DNA from: Phlyctochytrium arcticum
Lineage: Eukaryota > Chytridiomycota > Chytridiomycetes > Chytridiales > Chytridiaceae
NCBI GenBank assembly: GCA_025602905.1
Contig: JAHLKI010000005.1
Span: 744,001-808,000 of the forward strand
Direction: 5' to 3'
Length of the DNA stretch: 64,000 bases
Shown: positions 16,489-54,741 of the stretch, one piece after another
Numbering within the stretch: the first letter of the stretch is position 1
How the letters are laid out: each line of letters opens with the position of its first letter
Translations under genes and position numbers: made by a program
Notes under the pieces: model-generated
What the model was told of the DNA's origin: nothing
What the model saw: only the letters and a program-made list of their open reading frames with translations
Database searches by the model: none

Positions 16489-19400
16489 ATGGCGGAATCC
16501 TACCGAACCCACCAACACGAGCAGATCCGCCGTCTGGCCATCAAGCAGAACGGAATCCAAATCACGCTCCCCGTTCCCTTGTCTCTCTGGCCCGTCGCAG
16601 AAGCCTTCAAGGAATCTTATGCCTCGCTCGTGCCCGCTACTCTCTCCGAGACATTGATTGTTCCCGCTGCTGCGCACGACGACGACGACGAATTTGCTGA
16701 TGACGCTCAAAAGTCGGCCGAGGTTACCGCCGCCGCCGCCATCAATGCCCAAAAGATTCAGCTCTTGGCCAGCTTTCTCGACTTTTCGCTGCGCCGCGCT
16801 ACGTCCAACTCTACCAACAATGCCAATGCCGCCGCTACTCCCGGGGGAACTGGTGATTTGCTCGCTTTTGTCGCAGTCATCTTTTCCCAGTTGCAGCGAA
16901 AACTAAAGTCCAATGACATTCACGCTGCAACCCGCGACATTACTCCCGTTGACGCCCGGACCGCCGTCCTGCGCTCTTACTACCTGGCTGTGGTCGCTCT
17001 CAAGCGTCACAACATTTACGACGAGGCCATGGCTCAATCCACCACTAGCATCAACAACAACAACAACAACACATCATCATCCATCACATCAAACACTAGC
17101 ATTGGCAAGGAGTCTGCCCTCTTTTCCGCAGCTCAGGCCGGTCGCGCCACCATCATGGCTGTCTTTGGCGGTCAGGGCAACGTCGAAGAGTACTTTGACG
17201 AACTGGTTTCCCTTTTTACCACCTACGAGGCTTTTGCCCGCCCCTTTTTGGCTCAGGCCGCTCTCACCCTTGCCCAGCACTCTTCCTCGTCCGAGGCTCA
17301 GGCTCAGTACTCGACCAAGATTGATGTCATGGGGTGGCTTCAAAACCCCGAATCTCGACCCAGCACCGAAAACTTGTTGGCGACTCATCTCAGTTTGCCG
17401 CTCATCGGATTGACCCAATTGGCCAACTACTTCATTACCTTTAAGCTGCTCAACAAAACTCCTGGAGAATTCCGCAGTATCTTAGCTGGTATGTATCTCT
17501 TTTTCTCTATACTTTGAGGTCAGATGACTTACCCTCATCCAACAGGAACCACCGGTCACTCTCAGGGAATTGTGTCTTCGGTGGTCATTTCAGCTTCCGA
17601 GACGGAAAAGGAGTTTTTGGAAAACACCCAAAAGGCGCTTACTTTGTTGTACTGGCTCGGTCTCCGTTCGCAGAGCGCTTGTCCCGCCACCACTCTCAAC
17701 CCCAACATTTTGCAAGACTCGCTCGCTAACAGCGAAGGAGTTCCCACGCCCATGTTGGCCGTCAACGGTCTTCGCTACTCAGAGGTCCAGCAACACGCCG
17801 AAACCACAAACTCGTTCTTGCCCGCCGACCGACGCGTTCATCTCTCTCTCGTGAACGGTCCGCGCTCAACCATCTTTACCGGCCCACCTCAATCACTCTA
17901 CGGTCTCAACGTATCTCTCCGCAAGTTGAAGGCCCAGACTGGTCAGGACCAAAGTCGCATTCCCCACTCGCAACGTAAAGTGCGCTTTTCCTCGCGTTTC
18001 TTGCCTGTGGCCGTTCCTTTCCACTCCGAGTACTTGAAGGATGTCCCCAGCATTCTCGAGGCCGATATCAAGGCTCACAACCTGCAATTCGAGGCCAAGA
18101 AGCTTGCTGTCCCTGTCTACCACACTCACACCGGCGAGGATCTCCGCCAGTCTGACAATGTGACCTCTTCCCTTGTTCACCAAATTTGCTTGCAGCCCGT
18201 CTACTGGGAAAAGGCGACTCACAAGAGTACCCATGTTTTGGACTTTGGTCCCGGTGGTGCCTCTGGTGTCGGATCTTTGACCCACCGCAACAAGGAAGGA
18301 ACTGGTGTTCAGGTCATTTTGGCCGGAACCCTAGAGAATGTCCCCGCTGAACTCTTGGATCGGTCCTACATTTTCGACCGTGATGTCCACTCGGTTCGCT
18401 TTGCTCCCAACTGGGCCGAAAAGTTCCGCCCCAAGCTGATTCGCATTGCCAGCACCGGAGAGATTCACGTCGACACGCCATTCAGTCGTCTCTTGGGCAA
18501 AGCTCCGCTAATGGTGGCCGGTATGACGCCTTGCACGGCCAGTGAGCAGTTTGTCAGTGCCGTTACCAATGCTGGATTCCACGTCGAGTTGGCTGGTGGA
18601 GGTCAGCACACTGAACAGTACCTCCGTGATCGCGTCAAGAAAATCATGGACCGTATTGCACCCGGTGAAGGCATTACTCTCAACATTTTGTTTCTGAACC
18701 CGCGTCTGTGGGGAATTCAGTACCCTGCCGTCCAAGCCATGCGTCGTGAGGGTATCCCCATGGAAGGTGTCTGTATCGCCGCCGGTGTGCCTTCCATGGA
18801 TGTCGCCGATGAAGTCATTAAGAACTTGCGCGCCGCCGGATTACGCCATGTCGCCTTCAAGCCTGGCAGTGTCGAGACGATTCGTCGCGTCATTACGATT
18901 GCCCGCAACAACCCCGACATGCCCATTATCCTGCAATGGACCGGTGGTCGAGGCGGTGGTCACCACTCTTTTGAAGATTTCCACCAGCCCATGCTCGAGA
19001 CTTATGGTGCCATTCGCCGTGTCGAGAACTTGATTTTGGTCGTCGGTTCTGGATTCGGTGATGACCTCGGTACTCTGCCCTACTTGACTGGTGAATGGTC
19101 CACCCAGTTTGATCACCCCCCCATGCCCTTTGACGGTCTCTTGTTTGGATCGCGTGTCATGGTCGCCAAAGAATGTCTGACCTCCCCTGCTGTCAAGGAA
19201 CTGATTGTCCGTGCCCCCGGAATCACCGACGAATCGCTGTGGGAGCGAACGTACAAGGGCGAAATTGGCGGTATCCTGACCGTCAAATCCGAATTGGGCG
19301 AACCTATCCACAAGATTGCCAACCGTGGAGTCCACTTTTGGCGTGAAGTCGATGACTCGTTCCTCTCTCTTCCTCGTGAAAAGCGTCTTCCAGCCCTTTT

Positions 19401-29333: not shown

Positions 29334-29708
29334 GCATTGGTGGCGGAATGGGCAAGCTCTCCGGCTTATTGATCTTAGATCGTAAATGCAATCCTCACTC
29401 TGGCAACACCAGCATTGCGGGCTTAGCCCCCAAAGCAACCGTTGCCAAAATCCACAATCTGTAACTTATTATCCACTTTACCGATCTTAGATCGGTAGGG
29501 TGCCCCTATGTCAACATGTGGGTATAGGGGATCTTCACCGGATGAGGTGGCACCTTGGCGATCCAAGATCGGTAGGGTGCCCCTATGTCAACATGTGGGT
29601 ACAGGTGATTTTCACCTTGGTTGAGGTGGCACCTTGGCCCTAGTGTGGGCCGGGTGCTTGATGATGATAACGCACAGATGAGCTCCGAGTTCGAATCTCG
29701 GCCAATGC
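29334..29708 (+). ncRNA. tRNA-like hairpin-array element 1
   Basis: Starts with acceptor strand GCATTGG and an A-box/D-arm (TGGCGGAATGGGCAAGCTC), ends with T-arm CCGAG-TTCGAAT-CTCGG and acceptor strand CCAATGC, followed by T9 (29721-29729), a polymerase III terminator. Right after the D-arm is the imperfect hairpin TTATTGATC / GATCGTAA. The insert includes a 77-bp tandem duplication (units starting 29494 and 29571). Total 375 bp. Function unknown. Confidence 0.7.
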
Positions 29709-29780
29709 ACTCACAATACATTTTTTTTTGAATTGGGTGAGGTCTGAGCATGTTCTGACCTGTTTGGAACAAAATACCCC

Positions 29781-29872
29781 GTTTTTGACAGGTGGAGAGA
29801 CGTGGCGCTCTCCACACTTGTGCTGGAGACAATGATAGAGAACCGAACATGCCACTCAGACAACAAAAGCAT
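29781..29872 (+). repeat. Orphan leader of a tRNA-like element
   Basis: Carries the conserved upstream sequence of the family (GTTTTTGACAGGTGGAGAGACG, TCTCCACACTTG, CAGACAACAAAAGCAT) but breaks off after GCAT with no tRNA-like body. It marks a truncated copy between elements 1 and 2. Confidence 0.6.
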
Positions 29873-29937
29873 CCCTGTTTCGCCGCACTTATCGCGTCAG
29901 TTCTAAGTGTGCCAAAATTCATTCACAAACACTGAAA

Positions 29938-30326
29938 GCATTGGTGGCGCAATGGGCAAGCTCTCAACTTATTGATCTTAGATCATAAAGCAACCCCCTC
30001 TTGTCGGACGTCCATCACGTATCACCCAACTGATTGGCTTCAATGCCAATCGCCCCCCTTGACCGTGTACTTGGATGCACGGTCAAATTCACCGCAACGC
30101 AATGAGCGTTCGGTTCCATCCGATCGAAACGATCGAACATAGTTTCGCAGATGCGCACAGTATCTGCACTTTCCCACTCATTAATGTGATGAATGGTTTT
30201 CCGTGCGATAACAAGAGTTATGGCACGTACCCCACATTTATTACAAATGTGGTTCGTGGTGATTATATCCGTAGTGGTAGTTCCGAGTCTTCTGACAGAG
30301 CTCCGAGTTCGAATCTCGGCCAATGC
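29938..30326 (+). ncRNA. tRNA-like hairpin-array element 2
   Basis: Same ends as element 1 (GCATTGG ... CCGAG TTCGAAT CTCGG CCAATGC), 389 bp, followed by T6 (30338-30343). The insert holds many hairpins: GATTGGC/GCCAATC (30032-30051), a 9-bp stem TTGACCGTG/CACGGTCAA (30059-30086), GCAGAT/ATCTGC and an 8-bp stem CCACATTT/AAATGTGG (30232-30252). The leader closely matches that of element 1. Confidence 0.7.
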
Positions 30327-30466
30327 ACTCACAATACTTTTTTGGGGACTGGAGCATGTTCCAAACGGGCCCGGTTTTTGACATGGAAGAAACGCGTCAA
30401 GGTCTCTCTCCACACCTTGCCGGAGGCAACGATATGGGAACCAAAAATACCAATCAGATATTGAAA

Positions 30467-30688
30467 GCATTGGTGGCGGAATGGGCAAGCTCACTGGCAT
30501 TTGCAATAATGCAGACATATCTTACTACTGTGTGACAAATAAGTAGTTCTCGATATCAAGCAAAACATACTGCATTGCCCCCCTGGCTGGGTTAAGTATG
30601 GCCTAGCGAGGGCCGTCATTTATCATCCATACCTTTGTGTGATTTATAAGTACCACCCGGAGCCCCGAGTTCGAATCTCCGCCAATGC
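30467..30688 (+). ncRNA. tRNA-like hairpin-array element 3 (shortest full copy)
   Basis: 222 bp from GCATTGG to CCAATGC, then T7 (30698-30704). The first hairpin is GCATT/AATGC, followed by ATATCTTACTACTGTGTGAC, a block shared with elements 4-6 and marking a subfamily. The T-arm has one change (CTCCG for CTCGG). Confidence 0.65.
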
Positions 30689-30704
30689 ACGATCTTCTTT
30701 TTTT

Positions 30705-32135
30705 CCCACTGTCTTTTTTTTGACTAGTCATGCTCCCCATTTTGACATGCACGCGAGACGCGTCCGACTCGAGTATTCTATTTTTGCGCAGCACTAATGG
30801 GAAACCATCAATATCTGGACCGTTTTGAAATTTGCCAAGCACAGTTTTGGTACCAGCCCGGAGATCCACTGAACGTGACTGAAGGTGCTCAATTGGGCGG
30901 TTTCCGCCCATACCACCGCTTCCAATGCGTTCAAATTGTCGTTTGAGTAGCAACTATATTTTGATCTTGAGACGATGCTGTGCTCAAGGCTCAGATAGAG
31001 TATGTTTCTATGATGATGGCTAGTATGTTTGAGAAGGTCCAAGAGCTGGGAGAGCAGTTGTGATAACAATAGGAACAAACGCTGTTCAGTCGGGTTTACT
31101 CCAAACAGAAATAGCATGCTCTGACACTCGAATTAAAGGGCAATGACACTCTTGACACTAGAAAAAAGCGTAGCTCTCGCCTCTATAACGGTGTTCAGCT
31201 GCCCAGCTATTCATCCCTTGCTCCCTGTAAGTCTCCAATCGTCAGTTGGTACGTGAGAGCAGCCTTGCTGAGAGCCTTGCCCAAGTTGCCCATTCACATA
31301 ATTCTTCCGATACTTTCCGACTTCCGATATGCTCCGACTATACAGATTTTAAAACTCCGCTGGCCCAGCTGGGCCAGACGAGCACTCACCGCGACATAGT
31401 CATTTATTTCATTTTGGGTTGTTAAAAATTCCAATTGGAGACTGCTGCTTCCAAAACCGGAATAAAACCTTGTCGCGTCGGAGTCTTCGTGTATGCCAGC
31501 AACGCGAAAATTGCCAAAATGTTCATCGCAGTTTTGACATGCATTTCGGCGGCCAGGGATATGCACATACGCTACGGACACCAGATGTGGCTAGAAATGG
31601 ATTCCTTAGACAATTCTGGTATAGAGCTTTCTTTCCTTGATAATTTTTGAATTAATGTGGGCTGCCAGCGAATGGTTTTCGGCTCACCTTGAGATGGACA
31701 CCGTGGGATTTCTACGGCCAGGGACGTTAACATACGCTACGGAAATCGGACGTGTATAGAGACCGATTTCTTGGACGATTCTGGTATAATAATTTCTTTC
31801 TTGATACTTTTTGAGTCACTACGGGGCTGCCAATGAATAGCGCTCCCCGGGATGGATCCCGTGGGAGAAACAGTACCAGAGACGCCATGCGTGTAGCATT
31901 TGTACATTGTACACGGAGAATGCAATGTTATATACTACAGCCAGTGCGAGTGTGTCCCGTTTACCTGGTGCTTCGTGGACGTCGTGCGCAATCAAAGTCA
32001 TCAAAGTCCGAACCCAGTCAAAGTGTGGAGCGCACGCACCATAACCGTGTCTCTTTGCATGTCAGAAACGGAGCGGTTTATTCCATCCATACAGAAATGT
32101 GTAAAGTGCAAAGTGATGCAAAATAAAGTGTGAGA
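30705..32135. other. Spacer with old element debris
   Basis: No gene recognised. It contains a diverged 165-bp tandem duplication (listed separately) and, at 32010-32135, the downstream tail of minus-strand element 4. Confidence 0.4.
31545..31850. repeat. Diverged tandem duplication, period about 165 bp
   Basis: Two head-to-tail copies starting near 31551 and 31716 share blocks GGCCAGGGA, ACATACGCTACGGA, GATTC/TTCTTGGACGATTCTGGTAT and GGGCTGCCA. Clearly diverged; non-coding. Confidence 0.6.
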
Positions 32136-32561
32136 GCATTGGCCGAGATTCGAACTCGGAGCTCCTACTACAGTATGATTTTTACTATTGGAGGTCTTAA
32201 CCCACGTTCGTGTCGTGGGAAGACACCCACTAGTATCGCTGTTGATAGAAAACCCGGATCCTGGGAATGATTTCAACAGTATTGCTGTGAACGCCGGCCC
32301 GCGATATAGCGCAGCCGCCCGCTATAGCGACAGCGGCGATATCGCGTGACGTCGTTCATCAGGATCGCTGAGGGATCCTACTCCCCATTGTGAGCAGAGT
32401 CCTTCAGATTCTCTGAACGAATGCCACCCAGTAGTGGGAGGACTCGTCCAGTTTAGAACTCAGAGTATAAGATATACTTATAGCCCGAATTATCACACAG
32501 TAGTGAGATATGCCTGCATTATTGCAAATGCCGGCGAGCTTGCCCATTCCGCCACCAATGC
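32136..32561 (-). ncRNA. tRNA-like hairpin-array element 4
   Basis: Minus-strand copy, 426 bp; the 5' half is at 32530-32561 and the T-arm/acceptor at 32136-32165. It shares the GCATT/AATGC first hairpin and the CTCACTACTGTGTGATA block with elements 3 and 5. Insert hairpins include CCCACG/CGTGGG, AGGATC/GATCCT, TTCAGA/TCTGAA (32403-32417) and AGTATA/TATACT. The terminator is weaker (TTTATTTT). It lies head-to-head with element 5. Confidence 0.65.
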
Positions 32562-32726
32562 TTTCATGTTAGGAGTGTGCTCTCCAGTACCCCTAATGAT
32601 TCGCGTGACTAAAGTAAAATTGTGCGCAACCCAGTTTGACAGGTGAAGCCACGCGCCATGGTCCCCTCTCCACACTTTGCCGGAGTCAATGATATGAGAA
32701 CCAAATTAACCAGTCAGACAACAAAA

Positions 32727-33066
32727 GCATTGGTGGCGGAATGGGCAAGCTCCCCGGCATTTGCAATAATGCAGGCATATTTCACTACTGTGTTATAAAT
32801 CCAGGCTAGGGACTCACCTGGCCCGGATATTATATCAATTGAACTCGGCCACGCCGCGAGCGTTGGGCGATGTTCATCGCAGCACTACTTCTCGCCATCA
32901 GCAAGACGTACTGCCTCGTCCCCCAGCTGGGTTAGTTCCCGGCTGCGGGATGCATACCCGTCGTTTCACGATTTTCGTGAGATGACGGATAACGCTTATC
33001 ATCCACGCAACTGCGCGGATGATAAGTATCACAGTAGAAGCTCCGAGTTCGAATCTCGGCCAATGC
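32727..33066 (+). ncRNA. tRNA-like hairpin-array element 5
   Basis: 340 bp, ends as in the family, followed by T7 (33080-33086). Insert hairpins: GCGATG/CATCGC, CCCAGCTGGG, TCACGA/TCGTGA (32966-32980) nested inside CCGTC/GACGG, and a 10-bp perfect stem CTTATCATCC/GGATGATAAG (32995-33026). Divergent pair with element 4. Confidence 0.7.
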
Positions 33067-33357
33067 ACTTACATTACAGTTTTTTTGGGTGGGTTAGCTC
33101 TCACCTTGGAACGCAACACCCCGTTTTTGACACGCGTCATTTTTGCGCAGCATGGGGAGACAACCACGCGCGTCTTGCAGCTTTTGACAACCGTCAATCG
33201 CAGATTTGAGAGCAGCCCGTGATCTACTGAAGGTGTCAATGAAAAGGCATTATAGTCAGCACTCCGGCAAAGTGTGGAGACCCCGTAGCGCCTGGTGTTT
33301 GTTCCATCGATATGGATGTGTAGAGGGCAAAATCATGCAAAACAAGATGTCTAAGTT

Positions 33358-33931
33358 GCATTGGCCGACATTCGAACTCGGAGGCTCGTCCTGTGTGCGA
33401 TGCTTATATCCGCACAATTGCGTGTAGCTAGTGCTATACAAATGCAGGGATGATCAGCTTATGAACGGGCTGCAGTATCTCAGGCGAACACACCCATATC
33501 AACGGAGTATCCTCATCGGATTACTTCAATAGCTGTAGTGACAGTAACGAACACAACCCACTGGGTTGTCTTCATTGAATCACTGATTAGCTGCAGCGTC
33601 TCCATCGAACACGACCCACCCTGATGGGACGTCTTCATTGGATTACTTCAGTAGTTGAATTGTCTCAATGAAGACATCCACTGTAGTGGTATATCTTCAT
33701 CGGATTACTTCGTTAGTTGCTAACGCATACAGTTCACAATAGTGGGTTGTCTTCACTGGATGAATTTATCACCGCGGGCCGCAACTCACGAATGTGAAAG
33801 GAGACCAGCAGCGAGTCGTCTTGTGGTATAGATCTCAGGACATAATCATAGCCTAAAATCTGGCACACAGCAGTGAGAATGCCCTGCATTTTCGCAAATG
33901 CCGGTGAGCCTGCCCATTCCGTCACCAATGC
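33358..33931 (-). ncRNA. tRNA-like hairpin-array element 6 (largest, modular insert)
   Basis: 574 bp on the minus strand; T-arm at 33364-33390 and D-arm half at 33900-33931. The insert contains about five tandem modules of 56-63 bp (33490-33770), each with a TTCATYGGATTACTTC-like line and a hairpin whose stem differs between modules but keeps pairing (ACAACCCA/TGGGTTGT, CCCA/TGGG, CCACT/AGTGG, TTCAC/GTGGG). No strong T run follows the 3' end. Confidence 0.65.
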
Positions 33932-34444
33932 TTTCATGCCAGAGACGTCCCTTTACTGATGCGCGTGGGTGAAATGCACCCCGTTTTGACAGGTGGAGAG
34001 ACGCGTCGGCCGAAACTCAGAGACCTGATACAACGCAGCGTGGATTTCCTATCAAGCATTGATGGTAAAGCGCTCGACATGCATGCGGCAATGTCAAACC
34101 CTCTTATTGTATATGCTTCTTCACCATGCTTGCTCTTATGGCGCGAAGGATGTAAAGCCAATTGTGATTAGAGTACAACTGGTCGGACTTACGTCCCCTT
34201 CATGCAGAACGAATTTCCGACTATCCCATGGTCTATATTCAGACGATCTCTAGTTACATTCATGTAGCCCAGAGTCGGGAGACTCGCCCTCACCCAGTTA
34301 TTTAGGAGGAGCGGTGATGACACAGTAGAGCAGTAGAAGCTTCGAGTTCGGCGTTAGGACCTCATTTTGACGCACACGTCCTAATGCGCCTCCATACTAC
34401 CAACGCAGTGTTTATAAAAGGTGGAATCCCCCTCAATGGGACAC
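33932..34444. other. Spacer with leader remnants
   Basis: Contains a fragment of the family leader on the plus strand (CCCCGTTTTGACAGGTGGAG, 33979-33998) and a degenerate 'agcttcgagttcg' T-arm remnant near 34337-34350. No gene. Confidence 0.4.
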
Positions 34445-34623
34445 GCATTGGTGGAGGTATGGACAAGCGCACGGCGGCCAACCTTGAAGTGATGAGGTTG
34501 TCATGAATTGGTGTCAGTTACCGCCGATTGTCGTGAAATGGTAAAGTTGCGAGGCTTGATCACCCTCTCTTCTTTATAGTACCGAAGCGTCAACCAGCTC
34601 CGAGTTGGAATTTCAGGCAATGG
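34445..34623 (+). ncRNA. Degenerate tRNA-like element 7
   Basis: About 179 bp. The 5' half is recognisable (GCATTGGTGGAGGTATGGACAAGC cut by changes) and the 3' half is decayed (CCGAGTTGGAATTTCAGGCAATGG). The acceptor pairing is broken and no good T run follows, so it is probably dead. Confidence 0.45.
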
Positions 34624-34964
34624 TATACCTCTTTCCTTTCTACATCCTGTTTGGTTTCCACGGTCGACAGATCCTGACCACAGAGATTTCCCAAGTCTTG
34701 AGATTGTCCCACCCGTGTCTTGCGAGCACCTCAGCAGCATGACTGCCTAATGCTCTTCGCGTGCCCATAATACTCGAGTACTATTGCCCGAAATGTACTT
34801 GTACAGAAATCTCGAGACGGCGAAATAAAGTTTTGGGCCGCTGGACTTATGGCTGAACCTGTGGTCGCCATTTTAATTCAAGGAGGAGCCAAGGGTTTTG
34901 TGGAAACAAACAATAGTGCGCGTGACACCTCGTGTATAAAGAGGAGGCCCGACCAGTCCCCCCC

Positions 34965-35172
<208 letters not shown>

Positions 35173-35388
35173 ACTTTCTCCTGCTTTTATTTCCAGCTCA
35201 TTGCCAGCAGCAATCTTGTCAATCTCCAGCCTTCAAGTCTAAGTCTTTGATTCTATAAATCAACGAGCCAGCCGCAAAGCAAAGCAAGGCAGCCACAAAA
35301 GCGGGTTCCGACGGCTAAGATATCTTTCTTCTCCTCACCTTCCTCCAGCTGTCCCCCGAGGAATCTTGGACCTGTAAACACTGCCACC

Positions 35389-37581
35389 ATGACACAAAAC
35401 CACAACGAGATCATGTACACGGTCGAGTCGCCCGGCGCTCCCGATATTCCTGGCGAGGGCAAGGTGAGATAGATATGGTTTGGCGTCAAAACGCGTCCTC
35501 CGAAATCGTCCATTTTGCTAACGACCCTTCGGGAATTGTTAGCCCCGCCGACACTACCTCCATGCCGACAAACCCATTGCTGTGCATCCCGAAGGTGCTA
35601 CCACGCTCTGGGAGAACTTTTTGCGCGGAGTCAGCATTTCGGGCGATTCCCCCTTCCTCGGCAGCCGCCCCCTCACCAATGGTGTCCCCGGCCCTTACGT
35701 CTGGCAGACCTACAATGAAATCCACAAGAGAGTCAAGAATCTAGCGTAAGTGGGCCATTGTCCTTTGTGCATGCATGCATCAGCAAAAATACCAAACAAA
35801 ACTGTAAATAGAGCCGGTTTTGCCATCCGAGGCTTGACTCCCGAATCTGCGGTCGGTCTCTTTTCCATTAACCGCCCCGAGTGGATCATTGCCGAACAGG
35901 CTTCTTTCTGCAACAATCTCATTACTGTCCCCTTGTACGATACCCTCGGCGTCGAAGCCCTCGAATACATCATCAACCAAACAGAGCTCCGCCTCGTGAC
36001 GGCCACCTGTGACAAGGCCAAATTCTTGCTCCAAGTCAAAGACAAGCTCCCTTCCCTCAAACATCTCGTCATTATGGATACCCCCGATGAGGCTCTCATC
36101 ACCCTTGGTCGTGAGCACGACGTCGAAGTCATTTCCTACTTGGATTTAGAGCGCGAAGGTGCCGCTACCCCTCACCTTGGCAGCGCCCCCAAACCCAGCG
36201 ACATTTGCACCATTTGCTACACCAGTGGTACTACCGGTATGCCCAAGGGTGTCATGCTTGCCCACTCCAACTTGTTGTCATTCACAGCGGCCACCCGGCA
36301 ATTGGTGATCGGCGGATCCCTCGTCGATTACAACAAGGACGATTGCTACATTTCCTACTTGCCTCTCGCCCACGTCTTTGAACGCATCGTTCAGGTCTGT
36401 CTTACTTATGTTGGCGGCCGCATCGGTTTCTACCAGGGTGACACGCTCAAACTCCTCGATGATGTTGCCGAGCTTAACCTACCATCTTTGCTTCGGTCCC
36501 GCGTCTTTACAACCGCATTTACGACAAGGTCCAACAGTCTGTCAAGGCCAAGGGTGGTATTGGCGCCATCCTGTTCAACCAAGCCTTTTCCGCCAAAAAG
36601 GCTTACCTCGCCCAAGGCTACACCACCCACCGCCTGTGGGACAACCTAGTCTTCAACAAGGTTCGGGCCCGCCTGGGCGGAAAAGTCCGTCTCATGCTTA
36701 CAGGCGCTGCCCCCATTTCTGGCGACGTCATTACTTTCCTCCGCGTTTGCTTTTCCGCCATGGTCTGCGAAGGCTACGGTCAAACTGAAACTTCAGGTGG
36801 CGCAACCCAAACCGATGGCCGAGATCTCTCCTCGGGCCACATTGGTTCCCCATCTCCCCACTGCGAAGTCAAACTCCTCGACGTCCCTTCCATGTCCTAC
36901 ACTTCCCAAGACAAGCCCTTCCCACGCGGCGAGATCCTTATTCGCGGCGCCAACGTCTTTAAGGGCTATTACAAATCCCCCGAAAAGACTGCCGAAACTC
37001 TTGACGCGGACGGATGGTGTCATACCGGTGATGTAGGCCAATGGGACGCCAACGGCCGCCTCCAAATCATTGACCGTGTCAAGAACATTTTCAAGTTGGC
37101 TCAAGGCGAGTACATTGCTCCCGAGAAAATCGAACTCGTCTACCAAAAGCACGAAATTGTCGCCCAGAGCTTTGTCTACGGTGACTCTCTCCAAGCCGTC
37201 CTCGTTGCCGTCATTGTCCCCGACGAAGACGTCTTCCCAACCTGGGTCGCCGCCCAAGGCCTCCCAACCACCGGCAAATCATTCGCCGAACTCTGCGCTG
37301 ACCCCGAGGTCACCAAATTCGTCCTGAAACAGTTGGAAACATTTGGCAAAGCTGAAGGCCTCAAAGGCTTCGAAAACATCAAGAGCGTCCACTTGTCCCC
37401 TACTCTCTTGACCCCCGAGTCTGGGCTTATGACTCCTACATTCAAGCTCAAAGTACGTCCTCTTTAACCCTACAGATTTTTGTCACACACCAACTAACCC
37501 TTTATTTTCTTTTAGCGTCATGAAGCTAAAAAACATTACCAAGAACATTTGACGGCCATGTATGCCTCCATCACCCAGTAG
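35389..37581 (+). CDS. Long-chain acyl-CoA synthetase with an apparent frameshift
   Basis: ATP-dependent activation of long-chain fatty acids to acyl-CoA (adenylate-forming FAA/ACSL family), usually at ER, lipid-droplet or peroxisomal membranes. Exons 35389-35463, 35543-35745, 35812-37452 and 37516-37581, about 661 residues. Visible motifs: ICYTSGTTGMPKGVMLAHSN (P-loop/AMP binding), SYLPLAHVFERI, GYGQTETSGG, WCHTGDVGQWDANGRLQIID and KNIFKLAQGEYIAPEKIE. The reading frame slips by one base near 36474-36480: before it DDVAEL, after it PTIFASVPRLYNRIYDKV, exactly as the family reads. No splice signals fit, so one base seems to be missing after CTTAA. This may be a sequence error or a real null mutation; the rest shows no decay. 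Paralog type (Faa1/Faa2-like) is not resolved. Confidence 0.85.
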
Positions 37582-37968
37582 AGGAACCAAAAAAAAAACA
37601 TCAACAGATCTCTCTCTCTATGTCCCTCCAATAACCCCCGATATCACGTACTAATACCGTTTTCTTTTGTCTATGCAACATTTGTATTTTGTTTCTTGTT
37701 TGTTTCTGTTGATCGGAAAGTATGAATCGAATTTGTGTTGTTCATCACAGTTAAAAAAAAACATTTCACGACGCATTGCTCTTTGCGACCCGTATGCTCC
37801 CAAACACATCCATGCACCGACTGCGCAAACTGTGCGTCGGGCGGGATATGGAGGAATATACTGGTATTTTAATATAGTTGCAGTCCCGCATAGTCATAAC
37901 GGTGTCTTCCAGATATGGCATCACTTGACGCTGGTGGTTTAGCACACAATGAAAAAAAAAGATATAGT
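37582..37968. other. 3' flank of the acyl-CoA synthetase
   Basis: 3' untranslated sequence followed by the downstream tail of element 8, including its terminator (A9 on this strand, 37952-37960). No gene. Confidence 0.5.
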
Positions 37969-38352
37969 GCATTGGCCGAGATTCGAACTCGGAGCTCTGT
38001 TCAGGCTTACCCCGTCCCACAAGAGACGGTGTGCAAACATTCCCACGGGAATGTGATCACCAATGAAGGTGAGTACTGCACCTTGCGGTGCAGCAACTTC
38101 TCACCCCGTCCCACAAGAGACGGTGTGCAAACATTCCCACGGGAATGTGATCACCAATGAAGGTGAGTACTGCACCTTGCGGTGCAGCAACTTCTCCCCA
38201 AGGTGAGGAGACTCCCTTGGGAGTGAGTTATACCACCCTGATATGGTAGTAACTACTGTACATCATGCGATGTAGCAATCTCCCCAGAGGAGATAAATGG
38301 GGGACCAAGTCAATAACGAGGTCAATGAGCTTGCCCATTCCGCCACCAATGC
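37969..38352 (-). ncRNA. tRNA-like hairpin-array element 8
   Basis: 384 bp, minus strand, followed by T9 (plus-strand A9 at 37952-37960). The insert contains an essentially perfect tandem duplication of a 94-bp unit (38010-38103 and 38104-38197) and a chain of short hairpins, for example CCGTC/GACGG, CATTCCC/GGGAATG, CACC/GGTG, ACTCCC/GGGAGT (38211-38224), TACATC/GATGTA (38259-38274) and ATCTCC/GGAGAT. Confidence 0.7.
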
Positions 38353-38557
38353 TCTTGATATCTGATTGGTATTTTGGTTCCCATAATGACTCGGGCCAAA
38401 GTGTGGAGGGGCAACTACCATTGACGCTGGCATAAAAGTGTGGAGAGGGACCATGACGGGTCTTTTGGCATGTCAAGAACGTGGGGTGTCGTTTTGTTCC
38501 AATCAACCAGGGTCAGAATGTGTAAGAGGTCAGTGCGAAAAAAGATGGGTCGTGGGT

Positions 38558-38837
38558 GCATTGGCCGAGATTCGAACTCGGAGCTCTGTTTCAACGCAAC
38601 GGGGCCATTCCCACAGGAGAATGGTTCCCTAACCAACTGCTTAGGTGCACCCGCACGATAACACGGGGGCCATATTCCCATAGCCCATGATAGTTATCCA
38701 ACTACAAGCGGAGATTCGCCTCCCTTGGGAACCGCAGCTATAAAGCATACATATGCCTTATAAGACAGGGGATATTATATTCCCCCCTTCCCAGTCAATA
38801 TGGGTGTCAGTAGGCTTGCCCATTCCGCCACCAATGC
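38558..38837 (-). ncRNA. tRNA-like hairpin-array element 9
   Basis: 280 bp, minus strand, followed by T6 (plus-strand A6 at 38538-38543) and then, head-to-tail, by the leader of element 8. Insert hairpins include CCATTC/GAATGG, GGAG/CTCC and GCATA/TATGC. Confidence 0.7.
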
Positions 38838-39000
38838 CTTGTTGTTTGACTGGAATTTTGATTCTCATTACCGTACTATTTAGACTGCCAAAAGTGTGGA
38901 GAAGTGCCACGACGCGTCTTTTGGCATGCCCAAAACGGGGGTCCACTGGGGTTCAATCAGGTCATAAAACAGGTCAGAACCAGTACGAGCTCAAATACGC

Positions 39001-39040
39001 AAAAAAAGAATCTTGCTTTATTCGAGATTCGAACTCGGAG
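39001..39040 (-). ncRNA. tRNA-like element 10, 3' remnant
   Basis: Only the T-arm (CGAG TTCGAAT CTCG, 39023-39037) and a decayed acceptor remain, with a T7 terminator (A7 at 39001-39007). The expected 5' half is not found within several hundred bases, so the copy is truncated. Confidence 0.5.
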
Positions 39041-39500: not shown

Positions 39501-42500
39501 TTACAACAATCTATACGTAGGGGCACCAGGCAAAGCCATATCGGCCTTCTTAACATCCTCTGGTTTCCAGTCCTCACCGCCCCTCTTGACCTTGTCAACC
39601 TCGACAATCTCCACCTCGTTGACCTTGAGCGTCATCAATTCCCGCTTGATGTAATCCCGGTTTTGCGACAGAACGGCCAATTCGTCAAACTTGAGCTTCC
39701 GGTCAAACGCCGCCGGACCGAGTTGCTCCACGTTTTGCTTCACAGACGCAACAAACGGCATGATTTGCTTGTTCTTCATAAATCCTCGGGAGATGAGGAG
39801 TTGTTTCTCGGTATTGTTAAACGTTTTGGTGGATTCGTCCCAAGTTTCTTTCAGGAGCGCAACAGCTTCATCCTGCCATTCGGGGAAACTTGTTGCTACG
39901 AACAAACGCAGCAGGCCTTGCTTCTCGGGACCCGGACTAGCTGGCCGAGCACCCTTCTTGGTCTTCTTGCGGGCCAATTGGTCTTCGGCTGATCGAACTT
40001 TGGATGCCAATGCCCGAATGTAGGAAGCGGCGGCCAGGATAGATGCGTCCGGGTCGCGGGTCAAGGTAGGCCACAGGGCCTTCTTAATGGATTCGGGTTT
40101 GTGGAGGAGGTTGGACCAGACGTGCTCACTCCAGTGAGGAATGAAGGGGGCAAGGACGAGAGACAATACTTCGATGTATCGTTTGACCAAATCTTGGTGC
40201 ATCCCTTCGTAAGATTCGCCTTCAACAGCCGAAGTGCCAGAGCCTTGGCCGGTCGTGGCTTTTCGGTATTCGGATCGTGCGTTGGACAATTCGTAGAATC
40301 CCAGTTTGAGGGCTTCACGGTAGAGCATTTGCTGGTACGCCGCATCGATTTCACCAATGAACTGGTTGATTTCAGCCTCAAAGACTCGGTCGTTCCATGT
40401 GTACTCGCCGGTGCGCAGCTTTCCTTGGTCGCAAAGCGCAAGGGTCTCTTCAATCCATTCGCGTTCTGTGTAGAGCTTGAGAATGGCGTCGTCGGCGGTT
40501 TTCTCCAGGAAGTTGGCGTCTTCGACACTGTCACCGGCATCCGCGAGGGAGAATCGGGTTGCATCGGCACCATAAACTTTGAGGGCATCATGGATGGTCA
40601 TAAAGTTTCCGGTGGACTTGGACATTTTTTCACTGTTGAGGAGCAAGTGACCATTTACGCGGACGCCACGGGGCCATTGTTCTCGAGGGAAAATGGCCGT
40701 GTGGTTGTAGATGAAAAAGGTCAAGTGGTTGTTGATCAAGTCCTTGCCCGACACTCGGAGATCCAGTGGGTAAAAGTACTTGAATTCACGCTGGGCACGT
40801 TCGAGAATATCGGCACTGATGGTGGTGGTGGTGGGCTTGGGTCCATCCATAAGAATGTAATCCCAAACTTCATCGGTCAGCTGGTCAGCAGGAATGTTGC
40901 CTTCGCCCATTTTGGAACCGTCCAAATTTCCACCGTGCAACAAGTGCGAAACTGTGTAGTAGGCCATGTAAATGGTCGAGTCTGACAGGGATTCAATCAG
41001 GTATTGGGGGTCCCAGGGTAAACGACTACCGAGACCAAAACTGCGGGAACACGCCCACTGGCCCAACCAATCCAACGTCTTTTCAAACTGGTTGCGGGCT
41101 TCCGAGCTGTACAACTCCATATCCGCAAGGGCCTGAGCGGCGAGCTTCTTCCATCCTTCCTCACCATAGTTCATGTACCACTGCGGGGCCAGAGTCACGA
41201 CACATTCATCTCCACTACGAGAAATGACGAGACCCTCAGGCTCACAGTATGGGAATGCAAGACCTTCCTCAATCAGCTTGGTGCGGATCAAGGCTTTGGC
41301 ATCACGGACAGGTGTGCCGGCAAAATCACCAATTATCAAGGTACCGTGGTTGAAACCTTCACGGTAGACCTCAGTCTTGGCTTCGGCCAGTTGAGCCTTG
41401 TCTTTTTGACTGTTGATCTTGTATTTTTTGATGGCAGCTTCAGCGGCGCGGTCACCGAGGTTGGGAGTGCGGATAATGTTGGGGAACGTATCAAAGAAGG
41501 GTTCAACCCATTTGGATTGGACATTGTAGTATGCAGCCTTCTTCTTCAGGTCTTGCAGGGTAATGTAATCATCAGGAGAATCAGATGGGACGGAAGTAAC
41601 TACACCAGTTCCCTTGTTAACCAACACACCCTCCATGGGGAGGGTGTAAACCTTTTCGTAGGGGCAAAGAGGAGCGTGCAGTGGAACACCAATCAGATCG
41701 ATGCCCTTGACCTCACCCAGCTTCTTAACAACACCAGGTTCTTCGAATAGCTTCTGGAAGGCCATGTTTTTCGCTGATCGCTCTGTGCAAACCCAAGCCT
41801 CCTTGTCGCTAACAGCGTAAATGCCGTAGGTAATGTCTACGCCTACGTAGCAGTTAGTCTGACCATACATAGTTTCGGGACGCAGGGTGCCAGCAACAAG
41901 GTAGAGTTTCCGACCAGTCAGGGCAGTTTGAGTCTTGCTAGACGTCAAAACTTGACCAACTGGGACACCCTTGACTTGGTCGCGTTCGGCTTCTGGCACA
42001 TCCAAGAGCTCCTTCATCAAGACTTCCATCTTGATGCCAGTGTATTCCTGCACACCAACACCTTCTCCCGTGGCTCGATCGTGGTCCATGCATGGCTGTC
42101 CATCCAGCGGTGAGTAGATTGTGTATCGCTCGCCAAACTTGACCTTATTTGCGGCTCGGAACTTGTTGAACTGCCACCGCACAAACGAATCAAAGTAAGG
42201 GTTGATGTCCGTGGTGAAGAAGGACCGGCGCCAGTCAACTGATAGTCCAAAGGCTTTCAGATCCTCAATGGCACGAGGGGGGAAGTAGTACAACCAATGC
42301 CTTGAATCAGCGAAATTCTTGATTTCCTCATTTGGAATTCCCATTTGCCGCATGATTTGGAACTGGTAGGTCAATCCAGTGCTCTTGGAGTTGGCCTTGC
42401 CGTGCTTCTTGACAAATTTGGAAGGATCAATATCCGCCGACGACGCCGTGACTGGCTTTGCCTCATTGGCTTTGGCAGCAGCTTCCTCTTCCGTCTCCGG

Positions 42501-42981
42501 CTTGAAACCCTCAAATTCGGGTCCAAACATCTCAATCTCCTTCTTCAACTTGTCCGCACATGCCTTGATCGGCATACCCGTAACGTGGAATCCAAAGGGA
42601 AACAAGACACGCTTTCCCTTCAAACGTTGGTAACCCGCCGCGAATTCCAGCTTGGAAAGCGAGAATGAGTGTCCCAAATGCAGCAGACCGTTCATGTAGG
42701 GGAAAGGGAAAGTACCCATGAACTTCTCAGGAACCGGTTCACCAGGTGCCGGGGCATTGGCCTCCAAAATTTTCTCGGCTTCCCATTTCTGCTGGGCCCA
42801 GACTTCTGACTTTTGCAACGCTTCCAACTTGGCCGTACCCTAAACAGTGCAGAAATCCCGTCAGTAATTCAATTATAAACAAAGTCAAACATTTCATTAC
42901 CTTTCTCTCTTCTGCAACATTCACCGACGTGCTTGTCGACGTTGTCGTCACCTCTACCGGTATGTCGCTCGCAATAGCCAT
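39501..42981 (-). CDS. Leucyl-tRNA synthetase, cytosolic eukaryotic/archaeal type
   Basis: Charges tRNA-Leu with leucine. Exons 42901-42981 and 39501-42839 (61-nt intron) give 1139 residues. Class I signatures: HLGH (HIGH) in NGLLHLGHSFSLSK and EKMSKSTGNF (KMSKS). The CP1 editing domain shows the T-rich region GTLRPETMYGQTNCY. Length and order fit cytosolic LeuRS. The start was placed at the first in-frame ATG (42981). Upstream of it the frame stays open to about 43158 without any ATG, encoding an Arg/Ser-rich, acid-poor stretch that resembles a mitochondrial presequence (see findings). Adjacent to the tRNA-like field, probably by chance. Confidence 0.96.
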
Positions 42982-54303: not shown

Positions 54304-54329
54304 CTTCGAGTTCGAATCTCGAGCGATGC
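54304..54329 (+). ncRNA. tRNA-like element 12, 3' remnant
   Basis: A T-arm (CGAG TTCGAAT CTCG, 54307-54321) with a mutated acceptor strand (GCGATGC) and no 5' half. It is followed by the leader (CTCTCCACACTTTTGGCAG) of the full element at 54416. Confidence 0.5.
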
Positions 54330-54415
54330 AATCCCCGTAGGGCTGGGGTACACCTCTCCACACTTTTGGCAGTGTGAATAGTTATCAGAATCAAAATTCC
54401 CGTCAAACAACAAAA

Positions 54416-54723
54416 GCATTGGTGGCGGAATGGGCAAGCTCACTGGGTGCTGTTATTGACCGGTCGATAACAAGCAAATCTCAGCTGGTCCGTAACGGTA
54501 GCTCGGGCTGCCGCTCTTGCCTATTTGTCGGCCTGTCTCCCCTCGTGGAATTCGGCGCAGCGCCGGGAATATCCCCCGTAGCTGAACTATGACCGGTGTC
54601 GGCCACGGAAGAATATCCTGGCAGTACGCCGAGTTTCCCGAGGCGACACTTGTCGGAAAGCATTGAAAGCAGCACGGCGGAGAGCGAGCTGCCAGAAAAC
54701 CGAGTTCGAATCTCGGCCAATGC
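54416..54723 (+). ncRNA. tRNA-like hairpin-array element 11 (isolated full copy)
   Basis: 308 bp with intact ends (GCATTGG ... CCGAG TTCGAAT CTCGG CCAATGC) and T8 at 54734-54741. The first hairpin after the D-arm is GTTATTGACC/GGTCGATAAC, a near-perfect 20-nt palindrome. It lies 15 kb from the main field and carries the same leader, showing the family is dispersed. Confidence 0.7.
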
Positions 54724-54741
54724 ACTCTCACTATTTTTTTT

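Follow-up and report, generated by a model that had tools for sequence, protein, structure and literature searches.

In engineered tRNA-scaffold RNAs, the body of a tRNA encloses and protects an inserted structured RNA, the cloverleaf being kept and the insert placed in the anticodon arm. Vault RNAs and tRNA-derived short interspersed elements (SINEs) carry internal A and B boxes and end at a T run. In the bacterial and organellar transfer-messenger RNA (tmRNA, SsrA), known in bacteria for ribosome rescue, the 5' and 3' ends together form a tRNA-like domain, in which the D arm is deformed and the anticodon is lacking, and enclose a structured middle that varies, as outlined in PMC3985003. The TMERs of gammaherpesvirus-68 are RNA polymerase III (pol III) transcripts in which a tRNA-like part at the 5' end is followed by added hairpins, as summarized in PMC8223928. 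According to the abstract of PMC3547838, Neurospora has pol III loci that serve as precursors of microRNA-like RNAs (milRNAs), one of them derived from a tRNA precursor via RNase Z with the tRNA moiety cleaved off. Here we describe a family of units in a stretch of 64,000 nucleotides (nt) from Phlyctochytrium arcticum (hereafter the window), in which the two halves of a tRNA-like domain are separated by hairpin-rich inserts.

The units share with tmRNA the arrangement outlined above, and differ from it in being nuclear with pol III signals, in having a Gly-type acceptor where tmRNA has that of Ala, and in carrying an insert that is not conserved within the genome. TMERs likewise combine a tRNA-like part with hairpins, and the units differ in holding their hairpins between the two halves rather than behind a 5' tRNA-like part. 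The Neurospora loci are the fungal parallel, and the abstract makes no mention of tRNA-like units that are split by a variable insert. Compared with vault RNAs and SINEs, the units have a box spacing that is several-fold larger, ends that form an acceptor stem, and copies that apparently arose by DNA duplication. Unlike the engineered scaffolds, they are natural and have neither a D stem nor an anticodon arm.

We consider it somewhat probable that the units are pol III-type genes for a structured non-coding RNA family which would be matured via its tRNA-like ends and which bears a rapidly evolving hairpin cargo. Apparently, this is a real, unusual and undescribed RNA gene family that has the shape of the tmRNA tRNA-like domain and is not a member of tmRNA. 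Among the papers listed in a search of the open-licence literature, none describes such an RNA; an empty search is weak evidence, and novelty is claimed only within that scope. The preliminary description of this DNA had suggested an undescribed class of non-coding RNA, or a mobile RNA element, with tRNA-like ends and changing cargo. The first half of that suggestion fits the boxes, T runs, folding and retained base pairs reported below, and the mobile half is not supported.

Census of the units

The assembly was GCA_025602905.1 (31.5 Mb in 91 contigs), and the window corresponds to positions 744001–808000 of contig JAHLKI010000005.1 (C5). Units were defined as paired end patterns, with a 5' pattern of 20 nt allowing up to three mismatches and a 3' pattern of 23 nt. 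In the window, each pattern had 10 matches (expected numbers, 0.01 and 0.00, respectively), and their pairing gave ten units, of which nine are full and one, u34445, is decayed. Eight of the full units, on both strands, lie inside 29334–39040 and the ninth is at 54416. The nine full copies given in the preliminary description were thus confirmed, and the decayed unit, which it had not listed, is added. The inserts of the nine full units are 174–526 nt long.

The genome-wide count added three further two-ended units and one with a mostly deleted A box. Specifically, two tandem units are located on contig C2 (C2a and C2b), one at C5:823165–823519 (minus strand, C5b) has a short A-box deletion, and the A box of the one at C8:359506–359825 (minus strand, referred to as C8) is mostly deleted. 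The analyses below cover 14 units, namely the nine full units, u34445, C2a, C2b, C5b and C8. Contig C68 duplicates this region with 99–100% identity over the compared 20 kb of its 40 kb, and eight of its nine units are letter-identical to window units. It was left out of the unit count because it is redundant with the window. No exact match to the unit 3' end was present in the viral contigs.

Decayed remnants were found on C2, on C8 near 776 kb, and in the window at 39014 and 54306. Both window remnants are lone 3' ends of lost units. The one at 39014–39038 (minus strand) retains the T arm with a decayed acceptor, and the one at 54306–54330 (plus strand) has the T stem TCGAG/CTCGA, a paired change relative to CCGAG/CTCGG. 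At about 775.5–776.8 kb of C8 (positions 1000–2300 of locus L073), there is an apparent pair of decayed units in opposite orientations, one with a recognizable B box and the other with a recognizable A box.

The tRNA-like ends

The ends of 12 units were aligned, C5b and C8 being dropped for indels. The 5' GCATTGG is present in 12/12 and the 3' CCAATGC in 11/12 units. Starts of GCATTGG plus A box and ends of B box plus CCAATGC, as first reported for the window, were therefore found. The ends are near-invariant while the inserts vary, and the uniformity originally ascribed to the ends holds for most copies, u30467 and u33358m carrying T-stem mismatches (an unpaired position in u30467). The acceptor stem has 7 base pairs (bp), and the T arm containing the B box is CCGAG TTCGAAT CTCGG. 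A short helix designated as P2 (AGCTC/GAGCT) abuts the T stem directly. Over the 12 units, the paired cells amount to 97.6% for the acceptor, 80% for P2 and 95% for the T stem. The A box, TGGCGGAATGGGCAAGC, is not accompanied by a regular D stem, and the anticodon arm is absent. In u33358m, an additional paired C extends P2, outside what the 12-unit alignment can score.

The acceptor stem together with A73 has exactly the sequence seen in tRNA-Gly(GCC) of the same genome. This sequence occurs at 11 genome places, and all nine that were checked are tRNA-Gly. The T arm is identical over 17/17 nt to that of the genome's tRNA-Gln(UUG), with seven places of which the three checked are tRNA-Gln. These identities make a chimeric origin likely where the acceptor is concerned; for the T arm it is possible, as the T-arm consensus is strong across tRNAs generally. 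Position 3–70 is an A-U pair in all 12 units rather than the G3-U70 of alanine identity. Forcing the acceptor and T-arm fold cost 0–1.0 kcal/mol over the minimum in each of the ten units whose T arm is unmutated, and 5.9–14.8 kcal/mol in the four units with mutated ends (u30467, u33358m, u34445 and C8).

Known families were searched for at the same loci. No Rfam family, tRNA included, was recognized at the window units (this search covered the window). ARAGORN reported no tRNA or tmRNA at the window units or at the C2, C5b and C8 units (loci L072, L073, L075 and L077), and the genome-wide RF00005 search gave none at any unit among the 63 of 1200 candidates that were scored. A tRNA (RF00005) with cloverleaf and anticodon arm was rejected on the Rfam and ARAGORN results. 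Assignment to tmRNA (RF00023) was also rejected, given these results and the missing G3-U70; the two-ended tRNA-like domain without an anticodon arm is the tmRNA feature that the units do have.

RNA polymerase III signals

The A box near the 5' end and the B box near the 3' end are about 175–530 nt apart. Variable A–B spacing is reportedly tolerated by yeast TFIIIC (PMC4090602). A run of five or more T was found within 40 nt downstream of 10/14 units, compared with 32 of 715 overlapping control 40-mers taken from three window stretches. T4 was found within this distance in 13/14 units, the decayed u34445 having none. The boxes that had been named as pol III signals are thus present, with T runs after most copies. 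Terminator-like runs follow u29334 (T9, 29721–29729), u29938 (T6, 30338–30343), u30467 (T7, 30698–30704), u32727 (T7, 33080–33086) and u54416 (T8, 54734–54741) on the plus strand, and u37969m (T9, 37952–37960) and u38558m (T6, 38538–38543) on the minus strand. The unit bodies (4636 nt) contain no T5 (5.8 expected from the control stretches), and the corresponding numbers are 2 vs. 5.8 for A5, 8 vs. 22 for T4, and 9 vs. 21 for A4. The A box, B box, T-run end and lack of internal T5 that characterize a type 2 pol III gene were all found, with eight internal T4 runs.

Structure of the inserts

The folding energy of each insert was compared with those of 300 dinucleotide shuffles. Ten of the 14 inserts were more stable than all of their shuffles (z scores of −4.0 to −9.7). 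In the window these are u29334 (29334–29709, plus strand, insert of 327 nt, z −5.5), u29938 (29938–30327, plus, z −7.1), u32136m (32135–32561, minus, z −7.3), u32727 (32727–33067, plus, z −9.7), u33358m (33357–33931, minus, z −5.3), u37969m (37968–38352, minus, z −7.6) and u54416 (54416–54724, plus, z −4.0). The strongest structure of all is that of u32727, u33358m is the longest unit (575 nt), and u54416 lies beyond the originally reported field. The exceptions were u30467 (30467–30689, plus, full length, z −1.7, 13/300 shuffles as stable), u34445 (34445–34624, plus, with mutated A and B boxes and no excess structure, z −0.6, 81/300), u38558m (38557–38837, minus, full, z −1.3, 27/300) and C2b (12/300). 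As a control, 28 window 300-mers gave z scores of −2.2 to +1.1 (60 shuffles, plus strand only). The sense strand had the more extreme z score in 12/14 units.

Perfect hairpins of at least 7 bp numbered 49 over the 14 inserts, compared with 24.3 ± 3.8 (maximum 36) in 200 shuffles, and the longest helix, with 1-nt bulges or mismatches allowed, reached 16–31 bp in 7/14 inserts. Hairpin content is thus above the shuffled level. The preliminary statement that the inserts are rich in hairpins stands for the set as a whole and for the ten inserts with excess folding, and is weak for u30467, u34445, u38558m and C2b.

The inserts had also been described as non-aligning and about 150–500 nt long. Indeed, blastn gave no match for most insert pairs, and the length range is close to that given above; some inserts are distantly related. 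In u30467, u32136m, u32727 and u33358m, the first 67–94 insert nt are in common. Between u32136m and u32727, the initial 75 nt are 95% identical and the final 34 nt 97% identical, and blastn matched nothing in the part that separates them. The global alignment scores of five tested unit pairs exceeded those of all 80 shuffled controls, which indicates the distant relationship. For u38558m and u54416, the upstream flank has 63 nt at 90% identity, yet the insert score is near chance (23 vs. a shuffled mean of 16).

Internal duplications were found in several inserts: a 94-nt tandem duplication with 99% identity in u37969m, a duplicated internal block of ~88 nt with 87.5% identity in u29334, and repeats offset by ~62 nt with about 70% identity in u33358m. 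These suggest a route by which the cargo could grow. By eye, the repeats at 33358–33931 (minus strand) may each form a hairpin with differing partners.

The cargo of six units (29334–33931) matched only family members in the genome at E values up to 1, with 11 of 51 first-look candidates unscored. Guide-like capture of genomic sequence was rejected, as the scored matches of this six-unit stretch are confined to the family and to an intergenic repeat that is unrelated to the units and lies outside them. The repeat (31143–31982) is interspersed, lies between two units, and occurs at some 35 loci on many contigs, mostly with 65–82% identity.

Retention of base pairs

Pair retention was evaluated for the inserts only. 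The observed letters were reshuffled among paired sites and the whole procedure was repeated with 80 shuffled partners; the comparisons share units and are uncorrected for their number. From u32727 to C8, 62 of 75 pairs were kept (55.6 expected, z 3.5, 0/80 shuffled partners) and, in the reverse direction, 63 of 77 (z 3.8, 0/80). From u32136m to u33358m, 83 of 111 pairs were kept (z 3.2, 1/80), and 64 of 82 in the reverse direction (z 2.9, 2/80). The values for u32136m to u32727 and for u37969m to u38558m were z 2.2 (0/80) and z 2.1 (1/80), respectively. Retention was above chance in four of the five aligned unit pairs, among which u32727/C8 is the sole secure alignment across an entire insert (blastn E value of 6e-38). 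An earlier test with a different null gave P < 0.05 in 8 of 13 directional comparisons covering eight unit pairs. The non-significant comparisons were u32727/u30467 both ways, C2b to C2a, u29334 to u29938 and u32727 to u33358m; retention in the 5' part of u29334/u29938 was also not significant.

Flanking sequences and copying

Upstream sequence of up to about 90 nt is common to copies of the family. The shared blocks on the plus strand are 32635–32726 (u32727), 30377–30466 (u30467), 54353–54415 (u54416) and 29784–29872 (65 nt from u29938), and those on the minus strand are 38353–38411 (u37969m) and 38838–38868 (u38558m). The block of u32727 would be outside the RNA if the transcript starts near GCATTGG. 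With 0–1 mismatch, all places of a 19-nt upstream core are within the family, and with three mismatches there are 12 further places compared with one for a reversed control. Flanking direct repeats are 0–7 nt long, lengths that were equalled by 12–100 of 100 shuffled flanks. The copies are few in total and mostly clustered in one 50-kb stretch. Shared upstream flank, direct repeats at chance level and few clustered copies match the picture of segmental duplication of DNA accompanied by decay, and on the same grounds the "mobile RNA element" of the preliminary description is not supported.

Interpretation and alternatives

If the units are pol III genes for a structured RNA, TFIIIC would bridge the widely spaced A and B boxes. 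The transcript would be trimmed by RNase P and RNase Z as for a pre-tRNA and CCA would be added, as is expected from the intact acceptor–T-arm half. The predicted RNA is 220–575 nt long with the 5' end GCATTGG and the 3' end CCAATGCA(CCA). Its tRNA-like domain would shield the RNA and clasp the hairpin cargo between the two halves. The cargo may enlarge by local tandem duplication, and its sequence would turn over fast while base pairs are kept. This would suit a job that calls for structured RNA and not for one particular sequence; the cargo might, for example, bind a dsRNA-binding protein, act as its decoy, or serve as input for RNA processing. Conjecturally, an antagonist drives the diversification of the cargo.

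Several observations weigh against this interpretation. The A–B spacing far exceeds that of ordinary tRNA genes, and the depletion of T5 in the unit bodies is not strand-specific because A runs are depleted likewise. The minimum-energy fold holds the T hairpin in only 6/14 units, and four other units favour an end-to-end duplex by 0.1–1.0 kcal/mol. P2 is absent in u54416 and weak in C2b, u38558m and u34445. No two-sided change was found in the tRNA-like core of the 12 units; as the acceptor and T stems barely vary, pairing of the core is indistinguishable from sequence conservation or recent homogenization. In the inserts, retention from C2a to C2b was at chance (z 1.2, 12/80), and u38558m has good ends with little excess structure. 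Two-sided insert changes were not above the shuffled-partner control, in which the observed counts were reached by 25 (u32727 to C8), 34 (C8 to u32727), 15 (u32136m to u33358m), 8 (u33358m to u32136m), 3 (u32136m to u32727), 9 (u37969m to u38558m) and 56 (C2a to C2b) of 80 shuffles. A claim of compensatory change (nominal P of 0.012 for u32136m/u33358m and 0.045 for u32727 to C8) was dropped because shuffled partners often reach those numbers, and pair retention was kept. The antisense insert was more stable than all 300 shuffles in 7/14 units, so the antisense strand is also unusual, which leaves room for an origin as inverted-repeat DNA. Finally, and this is the main weakness, the family comes from a single genome and its record consists of sequence; the latter point also counts towards the DNA-level explanation considered below.

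The main rival is that the units are small-RNA precursors, in which the tRNA-like ends act as promoter and processing handle and Dicer cuts the hairpins to milRNA-like RNAs for Argonaute. It is compatible with the structured-RNA interpretation and names the fate of the cargo. Piwi-domain matches at five loci (eight matches) and Dicer_dimer matches at two loci of the genome make such a fate possible, and the helices of 16–31 bp in half of the inserts are in line with it. In the majority of hairpins the stem is below 16 bp, which is short for Dicer. The family-only matches of the six-unit cargo show no apparent targets at E values up to 1, a search that matches of ~20 nt would escape. There are precedents in the main Neurospora milRNAs, which need pol III and include one from a tRNA precursor requiring RNase Z (abstract of PMC3547838), and in the viral TMERs (summary in PMC8223928). 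On balance we regard this fate as a possibility of minor weight. More speculative still, and held with slightly less confidence, is the idea that a nuclear eukaryotic RNA family independently reached the tmRNA body plan, with a chimeric Gly-acceptor/Gln-type T-arm domain that is matured and perhaps aminoacylated, and with a hypervariable hairpin cargo that tandem duplication diversifies in an arms race, e.g. to decoy or sense viral proteins or proteins that bind dsRNA.

An improbable alternative is that the units are DNA-level elements that yield no functional RNA: they could be binding sites for TFIIIC, inverted-repeat DNA, or tRNA pseudogenes undergoing decay. In its favour are the antisense stability noted above and the conservation of the A and B boxes, which ranks with the highest of any part. 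The 3' strand of the acceptor, which lies outside the boxes, is nevertheless conserved in 11/12 units, and the T-run terminators and the sense-strand bias point to RNA. Marginally less credible is a nuclear tmRNA-like RNA that is charged with glycine through its acceptor and works with the ribosome. The gross anatomy is the same (an acceptor stem with a T arm, a D arm that is deformed, a missing anticodon, and a T-arm-adjacent helix leading into a long variable insert; tmRNA as outlined in PMC3985003), and the acceptor is identical to that of tRNA-Gly. Against it stand the absent tmRNA call by ARAGORN or, in the window, Rfam, the lack of G3-U70, and inserts that are mostly unrelated. Since most inserts have no mutual blastn match, a shared tag frame is not expected. 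In addition, GlyRS normally reads the anticodon too.

It is very unlikely that the units are tRNA-derived SINEs or mobile elements of another kind. The tRNA-like sequence with both boxes, the several copies on both strands and the decayed copies would suit such elements, but the boxes stand at opposite ends about 175–530 nt apart instead of ~30–60 nt, the upstream flank is shared rather than unrelated, the direct repeats are at the shuffled level and do not qualify as target-site duplications, and the about 14 two-ended units are mostly clustered. Least likely of all are tRNA genes with giant introns, for although both tRNA ends are present and ordinary tRNA introns also part the A and B boxes, there is no anticodon arm outside the insert, the D stem is broken, P2 abuts the T stem, and ARAGORN found none.

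If transcribed, the units would represent a tRNA scaffold that occurs in nature and would give the tmRNA body plan a counterpart in the eukaryotic nucleus. They would show that the top half of a tRNA can provide unrelated RNA cargo with a promoter, a processing signal and a clamp. They would also widen the known A–B box spacing and offer a tractable system for asking why an RNA retains its fold and gives up its sequence.

Neighbouring genes

The unit cluster lies between fatty acid synthase-like open reading frames (ORFs; Pfam was run on 16489–17514) and a leucyl-tRNA synthetase ORF (39501–42827, minus strand); this is a juxtaposition only. The latter, of the cytosolic type, matches DFS34DRAFT_403140 of P. 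arcticum with 100% identity. A poly-C tract of 204 bases spans 34966–35169, ahead of a gene for an acyl-CoA synthetase; C68 has 22 bases there, probably an assembly or length difference. At 35750–37467, an AMP-binding domain is split over ORFs 35750–36646 and 36694–37464, which suggests a frame break or an assembly error.

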